From the NCBI RefSeq assembly GCF_000014005.1, contig NC_008009.1, positions 4,650,001 through 4,714,000 on the forward strand: a DNA stretch of 64,000 nt, read 5' to 3'. Below, one piece after another: positions 2,361 through 8,628 of this stretch. Source of the stretch: Candidatus Koribacter versatilis Ellin345 (lineage in GTDB: Bacteria > Acidobacteriota > Terriglobia > Terriglobales > Acidobacteriaceae). The translations under genes and the position numbers were made by a program. The notes below the pieces were generated by a model that saw only the letters and a program-made list of their open reading frames with translations, ran no database searches and was not told the origin of the DNA. Positions within the stretch are counted from its first letter, which is position 1; each line of letters starts with the position of its first letter.

Positions 2361-2565
2361 TCGCTTCATCCTCGTGCATGGAGTCACGGCCCCGATCGGG
2401 TCGGAGCATCGTTTTTATGAGTGGGCCGGGCGGGGAAGGCGACAAGAAAATTACCATAACTATCCGGCAACTCTGATGAATAAAATCGAGGCTAGCGCCA
2501 AAGTGCTAGTTGGCTTCTGCCGCTCCGATTGCTCGTGTCGGAACGCCGAAACCGGTTCCACCACT

Positions 2566-2592
2566 GAGACAAACTGTCTCGCCAGATACAAT
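2566..2592 (+). promoter_or_regulatory. Possible operator palindrome and -10 box upstream of the M64 gene
   Basis: GAGAC-AAACT-GTCTC forms a perfect 5-base inverted repeat at 2566-2580. A TACAAT hexamer follows at 2587-2592, only 6 bases before the ATG at 2599, and no Shine-Dalgarno lies between them. This fits a leaderless start, with the palindrome as a possible regulator site. No convincing -35 box is visible. Confidence 0.3.
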
Positions 2593-2598
2593 CCCCGC

Positions 2599-4035
2599 AT
2601 GAAGCCGACCGGCAGAATTCTTTTGTGCTCCTTCCTCTTTCTTCTTCTTCTTTCTCTGGGCCGCTCGCCGCACGTGGTCGCGCGCCAATCTAGCGACGCG
2701 TCCGTTTCGCGCACTATGCGGGTGGACTACTACCACAACGGCAACGCCAAGGAACAATGGTTCAGCCTCGATCGCATTGTGCTTGAACCACTTCCGTGGC
2801 CCGGCAATCCTCGCAAGGCGATAGATGACACCCAGATGGGCAACTACCGCTTCGAAGTCCGCGAGCACGCGGGCGGCAGGCTCGTCTATTCACGGGGTTT
2901 CAACTCTATTTACGGCGAGTGGCGCGAAACCGACGAGGCCAAGAACGCCAATCGCTCGTTCTCCGAGTCATTGCGCTTCCCTACGCCATCCGTTCCGGTC
3001 GACATCTCGCTGCAGGAACGGAAAGACGAGCGCTATGTCGAAATCTGGAAGACTTCCGTCGATCCTGCCGACAAGTTCATCGACACATCGCGTCCCGCCT
3101 CGCCGGGTGCACTCATTGAGTTGCAGAAGTCCGGTCCGTCCTCCGACAAAGTGGACCTCCTCGTGATGGGCGATGGCTACACCGCCGACGAGCGCGGTAA
3201 GTTCGAAACCGATGCGAAGAAGTTCATCGAGACGCTCTTCGCGACCTCGCCATTCAAAGAACATCGTCAGGACTTCAATGTCTGGGGTCTCTGCCCGCCG
3301 GCTGCAGAATCCGGAATCTCGCGTCCGTCTACCGGCATTCATCATCGTTCGCCGCTGGGCACAACCTACGACACTTTCGACAGCGAGCGCTATATCCTGA
3401 CCACCGAAAATCGCGCGATGCGTGATGCCGCTTCCTTCGCGCCCTATGAGTTCGTCGAAATACTCGTTAACGGCAAGACCTACGGTGGCGGCGGAATCTT
3501 CAATCTCTACGGCACGGTTGCGATTGATAACGCCTGGGCCAACTACGTCGGCGTCCACGAGTTCGGCCACCACTTCGCTGGCCTCGCGGATGAGTACTAC
3601 ACCTCCGACGTCGCCTACAACTCCGAGACGAAGCGCAAAGAACCGTGGGAGCCAAACGTGACAGCGCTCCTCGATCCCGCCAATCTCAAGTGGAAAGACC
3701 TGGTCGAAAACGGAACGCCCTTACCCACGCCCTGGAAGAAAACCGAATTCGAGGAATTTGAAAAAGGCATCCAGGCCGAGCGCCGCAAGCTGCGCGCCGA
3801 TCGCCGTCCCGAAACAGAGATGGAAGAACTCTTCCGCCGCGAGCGCGAGAAAGAAGAAGCGCTCTTCCGCGACGATCAGTACCCGAGCAAAGTCGGCGCC
3901 TTCGAAGGCGCGAACTACGAAGCCAAGGGCTACTACCGACCGGAAGAGAACTGCATCATGTTCACTCGCCACACGAAGTTCTGCCGCGTCTGTAGCCGGG
4001 CAATCGAACGCATCATCTCGATGTATTCAAACTAA
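2599..4035 (+). CDS. Secreted zinc metallopeptidase, M64 (IgA peptidase) family
   Basis: 478 residues. The ATG at 2599 is chosen over the longer frame from 2374 because it starts directly at a signal peptide (MKPTGRILLC, then a Leu-rich core). Residues of about 185-475 carry the M64 signature region: LLVMGDGYTADERGKF near 187, then the zinc motif HEFGHHFAGLADEYY at 320-334, in which His320, His324 and probably Asp331 bind zinc and Glu321 is catalytic. The N-terminal part of about 150 residues resembles the beta domain found in these proteins. A Lys/Glu-rich segment lies near 390-430. It probably cleaves proteins outside the cell; the name comes from a clostridial IgA protease and does not imply that substrate. 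A terminator-like hairpin follows. Confidence 0.85.
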   Translation: MKPTGRILLCSFLFLLLLSLGRSPHVVARQSSDASVSRTMRVDYYHNGNAKEQWFSLDRIVLEPLPWPGNPRKAIDDTQMGNYRFEVREHAGGRLVYSRGFNSIYGEWRETDEAKNANRSFSESLRFPTPSVPVDISLQERKDERYVEIWKTSVDPADKFIDTSRPASPGALIELQKSGPSSDKVDLLVMGDGYTADERGKFETDAKKFIETLFATSPFKEHRQDFNVWGLCPPAAESGISRPSTGIHHRSPLGTTYDTFDSERYILTTENRAMRDAASFAPYEFVEILVNGKTYGGGGIFNLYGTVAIDNAWANYVGVHEFGHHFAGLADEYYTSDVAYNSETKRKEPWEPNVTALLDPANLKWKDLVENGTPLPTPWKKTEFEEFEKGIQAERRKLRADRRPETEMEELFRREREKEEALFRDDQYPSKVGAFEGANYEAKGYYRPEENCIMFTRHTKFCRVCSRAIERIISMYSN

Positions 4036-4158: not shown

Positions 4159-6399
4159 ATGGAAAACATCATCGGACAGACGCTCTCTCACTACGTTGTA
4201 TCCCGCAAGCTCGGCAGCGGTGGGATGGGTGTGGTTTACCAAGCCGAGGACACGACTCTCGGCCGCCACGTTGCGCTCAAATTTCTGCCCGATTCCCTCG
4301 CGCAGGACAGCCACGCACTTGAACGTTTCCAGCGCGAAGCACGCGCGTCTTCCGCGCTCAATCACCCGAACATCTGCACCGTGTACGCCATCGAGCAGCA
4401 TGAGCGCCAGCACTTCATCGTGATGGAACTGCTAGAAGGCCAATCGCTCGCCGCGATGATCGGCAAGAGTGCTTTCGAAATCGAACAACTGCTTGCACTC
4501 GCCATTCAAATTGCCGACGCCCTCGAATCGGCTCATGCCAAGGGCATCGTGCATCGCGATATCAAGCCCGCAAACATCTTCGTCACCCCGCGTGGTCAGG
4601 TGAAGATCCTCGACTTCGGTCTCGCCAAGATGGAGCTGCTCAAACCTTCCGTCGGTGTGGCCACAGTCTCTCAGATGGAAACTGTCGGACAGCGCGATGA
4701 CCTCACCATCCCTGGCACCGCTCTCGGAACTGTCGCCTACATGTCTCCAGAGCAAGCCCGCGGCCAGTTCACTGATTCGCGCACCGATCTCTTCTCGCTC
4801 GGCACCGTGCTCTATCAAATGGGTACAGGAGTGCTGCCCTTCCAGGGCGACACAACCGCAGTGGTCTATGAAGCGATCCTCAATCGTGATCCCGTGCCAG
4901 TTGCCGAGGTCAACGGCGCATTGCCGCAAGCTTTCGCCCGCATCGTGGAGAAGGCGTTAGAGAAAGACCGCACGCTGCGCTATCAGACCGCGAATGACAT
5001 CAAGACCGATCTCACTCGCCTTAAACGCGATCTCGACTCCCGCGAACGCCGTGCCTCCAGCCAGAGTGAGTCGCGCACTGCTGCCGCGAAGCCCGCAGCG
5101 AAATCGGTCGCCGTGCTGTACTTCGAAAATCTCTCAGGTTCGAAGGAAGACGAATACTTCCGCGACGGCATCACCGAAGACATCATCACCGAACTCTCTA
5201 AGATCAAAGGCCTGAATATTTTCTCGCGCCCCACGGTGCTCGCCTATCGCGACAAACAGGTCACGCCCGCGCACATCGGCCAGCAGCTCCGCGCGGCGTA
5301 TGTCCTCGCCGGCAGCCTTCGCCGCTCCGGCAATCGTCTTCGCATCACGACCCAACTCGTAGATACCACCACCGACTTTCCCATCTGGTCGGAGCGTTAC
5401 GATCGCGAGATGAAAGACGTCTTTGAAGTCCAGGACGAGATCGCCGGTAAAATCGCGCAGGCCTTGCGTGTGACGCTTTCGCCGCAGGAGCAACAAGAGA
5501 TCGCCGCCAAGCCCACCGACAATCTCCAGGCCTACGACCTCTACCTACGCGGCAAGAGCTACGCCCGCCGTCTCCAACGCCAGGACCTCGAGTTCGCCCT
5601 GCAGATGTTCGAGAACGCCGTCATTCTCGATCCCAACTTCGCGCTCGCCTTCGCTGCGATCGCCAACGTCTGCGCGCAGAACCACTACAACTACGGCCGC
5701 GATCCGGAATGGATGCAGCGCGCCATGCATGCCTCTGAAACCGCCGTTGTATTACGTCCCGATCTCCCGGAAGTACAAGTCGGCCAGGCGTGGATTCTCT
5801 ACGCCAACAACAAGTACGACGAAGCCACCGCCGTCATCCAGCGCGCCATCGAGCGCAAGCGAGATTGCGAAGGCGCGTACTACATTCTCTTCCGAACACT
5901 CTTTTCGGCCGGCCGCTATCAGGAAGTTGCCAATCTCGCGGAAGCCGCGGTCGAGGCCAGCGGCGACGACTACAACATCTATGTTCCGATCATGAATTCG
6001 CTCGGCGCATTGGGGAAAACCGAAGCGCTCCGCAACTTCCGCCAGCGCGACATCTCCGCCCTCGAGCGCCATCTCAAGCAGGTTCCCGAAGACGCTCGCG
6101 CCCGTATCCTGCTCGCCACCGACTACGCCACCGAAGGCCGCATGGAAGAAGCTGCCCGCGAGACCAGCCTTGCTATGACCTTGCGCCCCAACGAGGCCAC
6201 CGTCCTCTACAACGCCGCCTGCGTCTTCTGCACTATGAACAAAAAATCGGAAGCCATGGACGCGCTCGCCAAAGCCTGGCACGCCGGCTTCAAAGACCCA
6301 GCATGGGTGCGCCGCGATCCCGACCTCGAACTGCTCCATGGCGATCCCGAGTTCGAGCGCCTGTATCCACCCAACGCTACCGGCGCCATCGCCAACTAA
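4159..6399 (+). CDS. Serine/threonine protein kinase with TolB-like and TPR regions (soluble)
   Basis: 746 residues. The kinase domain spans about 12-275: glycine loop GSGGMG at 19-24, Lys41, catalytic HRDIKPAN at 132-139, DFG at 152-154 and SPEQARG in the activation segment. A short basic linker leads to a TolB/FlgO-like nucleotide-free domain ([13 protein letters not shown], about 313-450) and then TPR-type helical repeats to the end. Unlike the second kinase at 56040, no transmembrane segment separates kinase and sensor parts, so it should be cytosolic. This architecture is common in Acidobacteriota. The ligand and substrate cannot be read from sequence. The first ATG after the terminator is used. 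Confidence 0.9.
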
Positions 6400-6454: not shown

Positions 6455-7885
6455 ATGGACACCCTCGCCCTCCTCTTCGAGCAGCACTTCGGCAGTGCAC
6501 CCACGCGCATGCATCCCGTGCAAGGCGGACTCGGCGGCTCCGGACGCATCATTACCCGCCTCGCCAACGACACGCATTCGGCCATCGGCATCCTCAACGA
6601 AAACACCAAAGAGAACGCTGCCTTCCTCGAGTTCTCTGACCATTTCCGGAAGTACGACCTCGCGGTCCCCGAAATCTATCGCGTAGCCGAGACTCGCAAC
6701 GCGTACCTCGAACAAGATCTCGGCGACACTACGCTCTTCCACTTCCTCGCGCGGAACCGTAGCGGGTCTGAGATCGCTCCCGAGGCCGTCAACGCCTATC
6801 GCAAAGTTGTGGAAGCTCTGCCACGCTTCCAGGTCGTCGCCGGGCGCGACCTCGACTACTCCGTCTGCTACCCGCGCCCGAGCTTCGACCGCCGCTCCAT
6901 CGCGTGGGACCTGAACTATTTCAAGTACTACTTCCTTAAGCTGTCTGAAATTCCGTTCCACGAAGAGGCGCTCGAAGAAGATTTCGACAAGCTCACCGAA
7001 TACCTTCTCAGCGCTCGGCGCGATTACTTCCTTTACCGCGACTTTCAATCACGCAACGTCATGCTGCACGACGGCCAGCCCTATTTCCTCGATTACCAGG
7101 GTGGACGCCACGGCGCGCTGCAGTACGACATCGCTTCGCTCCTCTTCGACGCGAAAGCCGAGTTGCCACCCGCTTTGCGCGAAGAGCTGCTCAATCACTA
7201 TCTCGACGCACTTGCCGAGCACATCCCTGTCGATCGACAGGACTTCCTCGCGCATTACTATCCCTACGTTTACATCCGCATCATGCAGGCACTCGGGGCC
7301 TACGGCTACCGCGGCTTCTTCGAGCGCAAAGTGCACTTCCTGCAAAGCGTGCCGTATGCGTTGCAGAACATCCGGTGGCTGCTCCACAACGTAACGCTGC
7401 CGATCGAATTGCCTGCATTGATGGAAGCCTTCTCCGCCATGCTCGGCTCGGAAAAACTGCAGAAGCTCGCGATCACCGAGAAGAAGGAGCTCACGATCGT
7501 CGTCACCAGTTTCTCTTTCCATCGCGGACCGGTGCAGGATGAGAGCGGCAACGGCGGCGGCTTTGTCTTCGACGCCCGTGCCCTCCCCAATCCTGGACGC
7601 GAGGAGCAATTCAAGAAGCTCAGTGGCCGCGATGCCGAAGTGATCGAATATCTTGAGGCCGAAGAATCTGTCAGCCAATACCTCGAGAACGCGATGAACA
7701 TGGTCAACGCCAGCGTGCGCGCCTACAAAAAGCGCCGCTTCACCCACCTGATGGTTTCGTATGGCTGCACCGGCGGCCAGCACCGCTCGGTCTATCTCGC
7801 CGAGCAGACGGCGAAACGACTCGCCGGAATTGACGGATTAAAAGTCATTCTGCGCCACCGCGAAGAGGAGAGTTGGGTCCGATGA
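6455..7885 (+). CDS. amgK: AmgK-like amino-sugar kinase fused to a RapZ C-terminal domain
   Basis: 476 residues. Residues 1-335 are an APH-type phosphotransferase: the catalytic-loop variant YRDFQSRN at 194-201 (Asp196, Asn201), the metal site FLDYQGG at 211-217, and YDIASLL, as in AmgK, the kinase that makes MurNAc-1-P or GlcNAc-1-P in cell-wall recycling. Residues 344-476 match the C-terminal half of RapZ, including the signature GCTGGQHRSV at 437-446 that lines the glucosamine-6-phosphate pocket in Escherichia coli RapZ. The RapZ N-terminal P-loop kinase half is absent. The next gene, a MurU-like enzyme, overlaps by ATGA, supporting a shared pathway. A TAAAAT hexamer 13 bases before the ATG and no Shine-Dalgarno suggest a very short leader. 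The kinase substrate is inferred from context. Confidence 0.8.
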   Translation: MDTLALLFEQHFGSAPTRMHPVQGGLGGSGRIITRLANDTHSAIGILNENTKENAAFLEFSDHFRKYDLAVPEIYRVAETRNAYLEQDLGDTTLFHFLARNRSGSEIAPEAVNAYRKVVEALPRFQVVAGRDLDYSVCYPRPSFDRRSIAWDLNYFKYYFLKLSEIPFHEEALEEDFDKLTEYLLSARRDYFLYRDFQSRNVMLHDGQPYFLDYQGGRHGALQYDIASLLFDAKAELPPALREELLNHYLDALAEHIPVDRQDFLAHYYPYVYIRIMQALGAYGYRGFFERKVHFLQSVPYALQNIRWLLHNVTLPIELPALMEAFSAMLGSEKLQKLAITEKKELTIVVTSFSFHRGPVQDESGNGGGFVFDARALPNPGREEQFKKLSGRDAEVIEYLEAEESVSQYLENAMNMVNASVRAYKKRRFTHLMVSYGCTGGQHRSVYLAEQTAKRLAGIDGLKVILRHREEESWVR

Positions 7886-8628
7886 AGGCGATGGTCCTCG
7901 CCGCCGGCCTCGGCACGCGCCTGCGTCCGCTCACGGACGATCGCCCGAAGGCGCTCGTCGAACTCAACGGACGCGCCCTGCTCGAAATAACGCTCACTCG
8001 CCTGCGCAGCTATGGCATCCGCGAAGTCATCATTAACGTCCACCACTTCGCCGACCAAGTTGTGGACTACCTCCGCGCCCACGACAACTTCGGCATGACG
8101 ATCGAAATCTCACGCGAAGCTGAGCTACTCGACACGGGCGGCGGGCTTAAACGCGCTGCCCACTTGTTTCTTCGCGACAGCAACGACGAACCCTTCGTCC
8201 TGCACAACGTGGACATTCTCACTAACATCGATCTCGAAGCGATGCTCCGCTTTCACCGCGAGCACCAGGCCCTCGCCACACTCGCGGTCAAGCAGCGCCC
8301 CAGTTCGCGCCAGCTTCTCTTCGACGCGAACGGGCAACTCTGCGGTCGTCGTAACGGCCACGACGCTGCTCCCGAAATCGTGCGGCCCTCAGAGACGGCA
8401 GAAGAACTAGGCTTTTGCGGCATCCACATCCTCTCGCCAAACATCCTCCCCCGTCTCGACGACGCTGAGATTTTCTCCATCATCCCGACCTATCTCCGCG
8501 TCGCCGCCGCGGGCGAACCCATCGTTGCGTTTCGTGCCGACAGCTTTTATTGGCGCGATGTCGGATCCCCTGCTAGCCTGCGCGAAGCCGCCACAGAAGT
8601 GGCGCGAAACAACATCCTGCCCTCGTAA
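7882..8628 (+). CDS. murU: MurU-like sugar-1-phosphate nucleotidyltransferase
   Basis: 248 residues. ATG 7882 is chosen because GAGGAGAG lies at 7865-7872 and the ATG overlaps the previous stop (ATGA), a translational-coupling arrangement; the in-frame TTG at 7873 is less likely. The NTP_transferase fold is clear: AAGLGTRLRPLTDDRPK at residues 7-23 binds nucleotide and metal, followed by LDTGGGLKRA and the metal Asp in LHNVDIL. In Pseudomonas, MurU converts MurNAc-1-P to UDP-MurNAc after AmgK; the overlap with an AmgK-like kinase supports that role here. Close relatives act on mannose-1-P or glucose-1-P, so substrate is inferred, not seen. Confidence 0.78.
   Translation: MKAMVLAAGLGTRLRPLTDDRPKALVELNGRALLEITLTRLRSYGIREVIINVHHFADQVVDYLRAHDNFGMTIEISREAELLDTGGGLKRAAHLFLRDSNDEPFVLHNVDILTNIDLEAMLRFHREHQALATLAVKQRPSSRQLLFDANGQLCGRRNGHDAAPEIVRPSETAEELGFCGIHILSPNILPRLDDAEIFSIIPTYLRVAAAGEPIVAFRADSFYWRDVGSPASLREAATEVARNNILPS

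Follow-up and report, generated by a model that had tools for sequence, protein, structure and literature searches.

What is the metabolite-binding half of RapZ doing at the end of a sugar kinase? This question is raised by a gene of Candidatus Koribacter versatilis Ellin345, which lies in a stretch of 64,000 nucleotides (nt) of NC_008009.1 (4,650,001-4,714,000); this stretch is the window on which all positions below are based, and all the features described lie on its + strand. A single open reading frame at 6455..7885, from the ATG at 6455 to the stop at 7883-7885 (included), encodes a protein of 476 amino acids (aa) in which a kinase of the APH fold is joined to the C-terminal domain of RapZ (RapZ-C). 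The next open reading frame (7882..8628, 248 aa) encodes a MurU-like nucleotidyltransferase, and its start lies inside the stop of the fusion gene, the two genes overlapping by the four bases ATGA. We will argue that the kinase-linked RapZ-C is, by its sequence, a subfamily of its own, and that the fusion may be explained, with a probability of about one half, as an AmgK-type kinase carrying a regulatory RapZ-C that binds a phosphorylated amino sugar, and acting with its MurU-like partner in a salvage branch.

A preliminary description of the locus had placed both genes and their overlap at these coordinates, and had pointed to the motifs YRDFQSRN, DYQGG and GCTGGQHRSV, all of which are indeed found in the 476-aa protein. 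Its reading of the gene as an AmgK-like APH kinase fused to RapZ-C and followed by a MurU-like gene is borne out by Pfam and NCBIfam. In Pfam, APH covers residues 52-254 (E 1.9e-11, above the cut-off), while the RapZ C-terminal domain (PF22740) covers residues 347-470 (E 3.1e-33, 115 bits for a gathering cut-off of 27). The N-terminal P-loop domain of RapZ (PF03668 type) has no Pfam match in the fusion protein, which scores 107.7 bits against the RapZ equivalog NF003828, below the cut-off of 244. The description was right to call this P-loop part missing from the gene, and full-length RapZ is present elsewhere in the genome: an ordinary RapZ of 307 residues, with its P-loop domain, is encoded at a separate locus, which gives the only PF03668 match of a genome assembled as a single contig of 5,650,368 bases and 100% complete. 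As for the kinase part, the AmgK models are its sole NCBIfam enzyme matches (NF045759, 45.9 bits for a cut-off of 550; NF045698, 40.7 for 500). The 248-aa neighbour matches NTP_transferase in Pfam, and the best of its 34 NCBIfam matches is MurU (NF045761, 136 bits, below the equivalog cut-off of 250); it also matches the solved chain 8hhd_A (E 4.8e-19), which has MurU among its names. In the pair found in Parabacteroides distasonis, too, the kinase part matches AmgK alone among NCBIfam models, and its neighbour matches MurU best.

The predicted structure agrees with this division. The window protein, aligned with 40 other fusions, was modelled with AlphaFold2, with a mean predicted local distance difference test score (pLDDT) of 91.7 and a predicted template modelling score (pTM) of 0.71. 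The modelled kinase domain (residues 1-340, 6455..7474) has 3csv as its closest solved structure (Z 28.5, 309 aligned residues), and other fold matches include the corramycin kinase and the N-acetylhexosamine 1-kinase 4ocj bound to N-acetylglucosamine (GlcNAc; Z 19.9). D196 and N201 of its catalytic loop YRDFQSRN (residues 194-201, 7034..7057) are invariant across the 41 fusions, as is the metal-site motif DYQGG (residues 213-217, 7091..7105). After a low-confidence linker (residues 340-343, 7472..7483, pLDDT below 50) comes RapZ-C (residues 344-473, 7484..7873), whose model matches the crystal structures of Escherichia coli RapZ with a Z of about 20 and a root-mean-square deviation of 1.4-1.7 Å over 123-126 residues; for 5o5o_B and 5o5s in particular, Z is 20.1-20.2 and the deviation 1.4-1.5 Å over 123-124 residues, with 35% identity. 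The same prediction is obtained when RapZ-C is folded by itself. In these models, both halves are complete domains held by a probably flexible tether. Across the 41 fusions, conservation is equally high in the two, with a mean pairwise identity of 57.2% for RapZ-C and 58.8% for the kinase, and 21.5 and 23.0 invariant positions per 100.

The RapZ-C pocket is best read against that of E. coli. There, the C-terminal domain binds glucosamine-6-phosphate (GlcN6P; PMC7073468), and sulphate or malonate, and probably GlcN6P, are found at H190, T248, G249, H252 and R253, with C247 nearby; the substitutions H190A, G249W, R253A, C247A and C247S each abolish RapZ activity (PMC9841335, PMC5737377). The 2022 structure paper calls the GlcN6P site uncharacterised (PMC9841335). 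We aligned 32 canonical RapZ, 103 fused and 4 stand-alone RapZ-C domains. The canonical rows comprise 17 from the genomes of relatives, E. coli and 14 others (Bacillota, Actinomycetota, Fusobacteriota, Pseudomonadota, NC10, Elusimicrobia, Acidobacteria and unnamed bacteria); four of the 32 (L170, L175, L179, L180) have no match to the P-loop pattern and are called canonical by annotation, length or a PF03668/tblastn match. Second gene copies (L002, L120, L114, L115, L117) were left out, as were rows whose last 130 residues were the same; one fused row (L091) ends at a contig edge and is unreadable from there, hence the 102 readable rows at some positions.

The core of the pocket is common to all. 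S166, D182, R184, N188, P189, G200, C247, G250, H252, R253, S254 and H276 (E. coli numbering) are kept in every readable row, canonical, fused or stand-alone, and T248 and G249 have one exception each (Ser in a canonical row and Ala in a fused one). The loop CTGGxHRS, which is the phosphate-binding loop CTGGQHRS (CxxGxxRS) at residues 438-445 of the window protein (7766..7789), is kept in 101 of the 102 readable fused rows and in 31 of the 32 canonical ones. What surrounds this core is rebuilt. Position 190 is Gly in 103 out of 103 fused rows and never in canonical ones (H 23, Y 5, N 3, F 1), and position 191, aromatic in all canonical rows, is Arg (95) or Lys (8) in the fused ones; these are G381-R382 in the window protein (7595..7600), in place of H190-W191. 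Positions 236 and 238 are Arg and Phe in all 102 readable fused rows, as against E (30), N (1) or D (1), and K or R, in canonical rows; R427 and F429 (7733..7741) thus stand in place of E. coli N236 and R238. The loop between residues 172 and 182 has 14 residues in all 103 fused rows and 9 in all 32 canonical ones, and the Gly-rich stretch DESGNGGG (residues 362-369, 7538..7561) has a 5-residue insertion relative to canonical RapZ. The four stand-alone domains are of the fused type (loop of 14 or 15 residues), with N at 236 in one row and Y at 238 in one row. In the domain tree, which contains E. coli RapZ twice, kinase-linked and canonical RapZ-C are separated with a support of 99.

The preliminary description had expected the pocket residues of RapZ to be present in such an alignment. 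Four of the five E. coli residues (T248, G249, H252, R253) are indeed kept, whereas H190 is replaced in every fused row; with this replacement and the rebuilt surroundings, its naming of the domain as the GlcN6P-sensing half of RapZ is not established. Judged from the alignment, the kinase-linked RapZ-C is a distinct RapZ-C subfamily, for which GlcN6P is not to be assumed as the ligand because the pocket differs at 190, 191, 236, 238 and in the Gly-rich insertion. The added cationic residues would suit a ligand more negative than GlcN6P, for example a muramyl phosphate or a UDP-sugar. Short proteins made of RapZ-C only, and named RNase adapter RapZ, are also found on plasmids of the actinobacteria Streptomyces globisporus (L182:1501-1983) and Planobispora rosea (L183:1456-1998); their pocket is of the canonical type, with Tyr or His at 190 and a loop of 9-10 residues.

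How widespread is the fusion? It was found in 13 of the 61 genomes searched (that of the window and its relatives); one of the 13 (G036) has an assembly gap inside the gene, and its row was kept in the alignment. In another genome of the same class (G060), the kinase stands alone, without RapZ-C, yet the ATGA overlap with the murU-like gene is kept, so that 14 out of 14 genes in these close relatives overlap the murU-like gene by exactly 4 bases. This genome represents a natural loss of RapZ-C, usable as a comparison. In a sample of 396 genomes of the phylum, 379 had some match; among the matches listed, at least 10 genomes had the full fusion (E <1e-200), and the others had the RapZ-C part or the kinase part only. 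The fusion is patchy within Acidobacteriota. Two Acidobacteriota kinases (L124 and L128, from G075 and G100) carry a fusion-like LYRDFQSQN; their match is of the kinase part only, their place in the tree is unsure, and no murU-like match was found near them.

Beyond the phylum, a broad scan of genome contigs gave at least 567 confirmed relatives, of which the best 80 were kept; as it was seeded with fusions and ranked by whole-protein similarity, it is biased towards fused relatives and cannot serve as a census. The fusion is in frame in all 80 of these best loci, whose record titles name eight phyla: Acidobacteria, Bacteroidetes, Ignavibacteriales, KSB1, Neomarinimicrobiota, Calditrichaeota, Elusimicrobiales and NC10. 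In 72 of the 80, no more than 350 bases separate the fusion from a murU-like gene downstream, and in 45 the two overlap by 4 bases; the contig ends in 2 of the 8 loci that have no such match downstream. A recent fusion, a chance fusion or an assembly artefact is ruled out by the fusion being present in all the kept loci and in the 13 genomes. Gene order and domain make-up are here direct observations: in at least eight named phyla, the metabolite-binding domain of RapZ is physically joined to a putative kinase of cell-wall salvage, and this without the N-terminal domain of RapZ.

The two halves are not always in one protein. A single RapZ-C match was obtained in each of 24 genomes out of 198 from Bacteroidota: 20 are in frames of 478-524 aa, which is the length of the fusion (5 were inspected and are fused, the other 15 being assigned by frame length), and 4 in frames of 134-149 aa. 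In three of these four, a kinase (338-343 aa), a stand-alone RapZ-C (133-135 aa) and a murU-like gene lie on the same strand, and Pfam confirms the parts; for the fourth, a 133-aa kinase-type RapZ-C (L161:5035-5436), no kinase or murU-like match was found within 10.4 kb. The gaps between kinase and RapZ-C in the split operons are of 3, 42 and 66 bases, each divisible by three, so each split could stem from a stop within a fused frame. In a kinase-domain tree of 62 rows, 40 fused, 3 split and 1 kinase-only rows cluster together (96 in the Shimodaira-Hasegawa-like approximate likelihood ratio test), apart from 18 stand-alone Acidobacteriota kinases. Because the split and kinase-only rows are nested among the fused ones, this tree suggests one joining event with later splits or loss, with the proviso that it comes from a quick method, without bootstrap and with a midpoint root, that some inner branches are weak and that eight close Terriglobia rows and L094 were omitted. 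The split versions, like the conservation and the pocket changes, are directly observed, and such a small protein makes the original ligand or role of RapZ-C directly testable.

The fusion is often the only RapZ-C of its genome. Of the 25 fusion genomes that do not belong to the close Terriglobia group, 20 are in this situation and the other 5 have both the fusion and canonical RapZ; neither a RapZ-like N-terminal domain nor canonical RapZ was found in these 20, which are mostly metagenome assemblies where gaps are possible. Both are present together in the 5 Terriglobia tested, out of 5, and in the genome of the window.

In the explanation that we favour, the kinase would phosphorylate a free amino sugar, most likely N-acetylmuramic acid (MurNAc) and/or GlcNAc, at C1, and the overlapping MurU-like enzyme would convert the product to a UDP-sugar for wall synthesis. 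At the CTGGxHRS loop, RapZ-C would bind a phosphorylated metabolite of the amino sugars; it would adjust the flow through the salvage branch, acting in cis within the fusion and in trans where the domain is encoded separately. As the pocket is unlike that of the GlcN6P-binding RapZ, the ligand is probably something other than plain GlcN6P. The substrate of the kinase, the ligand and the direction of control are what we infer here. The wider pathway gives such a control a place to act. MurNAc-6-phosphate (MurNAc-6-P) can end as GlcN6P, or as UDP-MurNAc once its 6-phosphate is lost. The genome of the window encodes both AnmK (E 2e-98) and MurQ (366.7 bits, cut-off 302), and, among 31 fusion genomes (this one included), AnmK is found in 25 and MurQ above its cut-off in 19. 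With AnmK and MurQ both encoded, MurNAc-6-P would stand at the fork between GlcN6P and UDP-MurNAc, and controlling the flow at this point would make sense. With the fusion, it becomes possible to test whether cell-wall recycling and amino-sugar sensing are directly linked.

Several observations weigh against this explanation. RapZ-C is dispensable in G060, where the kinase-only gene does without it, and 6 of the 80 fusion loci show no murU-like match even with 760-3,997 bases left downstream. The NCBIfam scores of the kinase and of its neighbour lie so far under the equivalog cut-offs that, by sequence, both are distant members of their families. With a pTM of 0.71 and a low-confidence linker, the monomer model leaves the mutual orientation of the predicted domains unfixed. 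As regards the altered pocket, His at 190 is absent from 9 of the 32 canonical rows too, and the putative site has been termed conserved in diverse bacteria (PMC7073468).

The first alternative is that of the preliminary description, in which RapZ-C would be a sensor of GlcN6P, as it is in E. coli, and would make the kinase respond to the level of amino sugars by feedback. C247 and the four binding residues named above are retained, the nine canonical rows just mentioned show that position 190 need not be His, and MurQ and the AmgK-MurU branch are both encoded in the genome. We nevertheless consider it unlikely, for the residue whose change to Ala abolishes the activity of E. coli RapZ is Gly in all the fused rows and in none of the canonical ones, and positions 191, 236, 238 and the 172-182 loop are changed without exception among readable fused rows.

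The second alternative concerns the substrate, as the kinase and the nucleotidyltransferase could act on another sugar (GlcNAc alone, N-acetylgalactosamine (GalNAc) or a different hexose) and not in MurNAc salvage. Indeed, APH-fold kinases with different substrates score Z 19-27 against the model of the kinase part, an APH kinase of Bacteroides thetaiotaomicron prefers GalNAc (PMC11992087), and the low NCBIfam scores would fit as well. This too we find doubtful, given that the AmgK and MurU models are the best matches of the two neighbours and that, in 15 of 18 loci of other Acidobacteriota, an AmgK-like kinase without RapZ-C lies beside a MurU-like gene.

Could RapZ-C be an enzyme itself? The pattern CxxGxxR[ST] is the signature of cysteine phosphatases of the PTP and DSP (dual-specificity phosphatase) types. 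In the RapZ-C model, strand 431-438 ends at C438 and is followed by a loop and by helix 444-457, which begins at R444; this arrangement, with an Arg at the helix start, recalls dual-specificity phosphatases. RapZ-C might then strip the 6-phosphate from the MurNAc-6-P made by AnmK and let the kinase phosphorylate C1, the fusion amounting to MupP plus AmgK, with MurU encoded beside it. The near-invariance of the loop and the frequency of AnmK in fusion genomes are consistent with this, and Gly at 190 with Arg or Lys at 191 would give space and charge for a lactyl group. In E. coli, C247A and C247S abolish activity; the authors of that work propose a possible catalytic -SH, and read the density of a GlcN6P co-crystal as a chemically transformed product (PMC9841335). 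The word phosphatase is absent from the main text of both E. coli RapZ structural papers, and PMC7073468 cites, for mutant phenotypes in distant species, a work with ATPase and phosphatase activity in its title. We hold this reading to be rather improbable, since dual-specificity phosphatases rise no higher than background when folds are compared (7ncy at Z 5.0 for 79 residues and 6d66 at Z 4.9 for 86) and the fold has been linked to a phosphofructokinase subdomain (PMC5737377). In addition, the residue before the Cys is not His, a general acid is not identified, C247 of E. coli is also required for RNA binding, which could explain the mutants without catalysis, and the kinase of G060 has no RapZ-C at all. 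A motif scan for a neighbouring MupP-like HAD phosphatase gave 0 out of 18 stand-alone-kinase loci and 0 out of 90 fusion or split loci, with a strict pattern, short stretches and no search with a MupP model.

It is equally improbable, in our view, that RapZ-C is in the first place a dimerisation or docking module joining the kinase to the MurU-like enzyme, with ligand binding as a secondary matter. The E. coli domain does dimerise (PMC5737377, PMC7073468), the genes are tightly coupled and the separate-protein versions stay within the same operon, but a mere docking surface would not need the many invariant residues of the phosphate loop and of the Gly-rich stretch. A broader form of the phosphatase proposal, which is a long shot, would see in RapZ-C an ancient domain that handles phosphosugars or is a cysteine phosphatase. 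The branch linked to the kinase would act on MurNAc-6-P or MurNAc-1-phosphate (MurNAc-1-P) rather than on GlcN6P, within a compact machine leading from MurNAc-6-P to UDP-MurNAc and standing in for MupP-AmgK-MurU, and RapZ of E. coli would descend from such an enzyme as a form that binds RNA; if this were true, the kinase-linked RapZ-C would be the last RapZ-C remaining in many genomes of the Bacteroidota group.

Finally, it is most improbable that RapZ-C binds RNA as in E. coli to control its own or other messages: the E. coli domain binds small RNA, R184 is retained in every one of the 103 fused rows and K170 in 25 of them, but K170 is His in 68 of 103, R238 is Phe in every readable row and, as stated in PMC7073468, only Enterobacteriaceae have the RNA-binding tail. 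An RNA-adapter function of the fusion is ruled out, since it lacks the N-terminal RapZ domain and since K170 and R238, which contact RNA, are mostly replaced. Public records give the name RNase adapter RapZ to the fusions of P. distasonis (L158:5920-7350) and Bacteroides finegoldii (L157:5920-7350), the next gene being recorded as a nucleotidyltransferase family protein. Roles in RNA regulation inferred from this name would be doubtful for these two kinase fusions of gut Bacteroidota.

On the other side of the fusion gene, the window holds, directly upstream (4159-6399), a protein kinase-domain gene with TPR repeats and, further away (2374-4035), an IgA peptidase M64 family gene (E 1.6e-160), both according to Pfam.

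How does the fusion compare with known systems? Our literature search, which left most subscription papers outside, found no paper joining AmgK or MurU with RapZ; one that mentions RapZ alongside B. thetaiotaomicron is a phage screen in E. coli. The E. coli RapZ (YvcJ in Bacillus subtilis) shares the fold of PF22740 and the phosphate loop GCTGG-x-HRS with the fusion, which differs from it by the lack of the N-terminal P-loop domain, the Gly-rich insertion and the replacements H190G, W191R, N236R and R238F. The kinase part resembles AmgK, the anomeric MurNAc/GlcNAc kinase of Pseudomonas, in that no other enzyme of NCBIfam matches it and in having a MurU-like partner gene; it differs by its score, so far below the cut-off, and by carrying RapZ-C. 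MurU, the MurNAc-1-P uridylyltransferase, is the best NCBIfam match of the next gene, yet with a score under the cut-off. The stand-alone AmgK-like kinases of other Acidobacteriota also adjoin a murU-like gene, as seen above, but they fall outside the fusion clade, lack RapZ-C, have an HRD-type motif in 12 of 18 loci and, when on the same strand, are preceded by murU. Another parallel comes from Bacteroidota, in which AmgK and MurU of Tannerella forsythia form a pair that is functional when expressed in E. coli (PMC13041923), and P. distasonis, of the family Tannerellaceae, carries the kinase-RapZ-C fusion.

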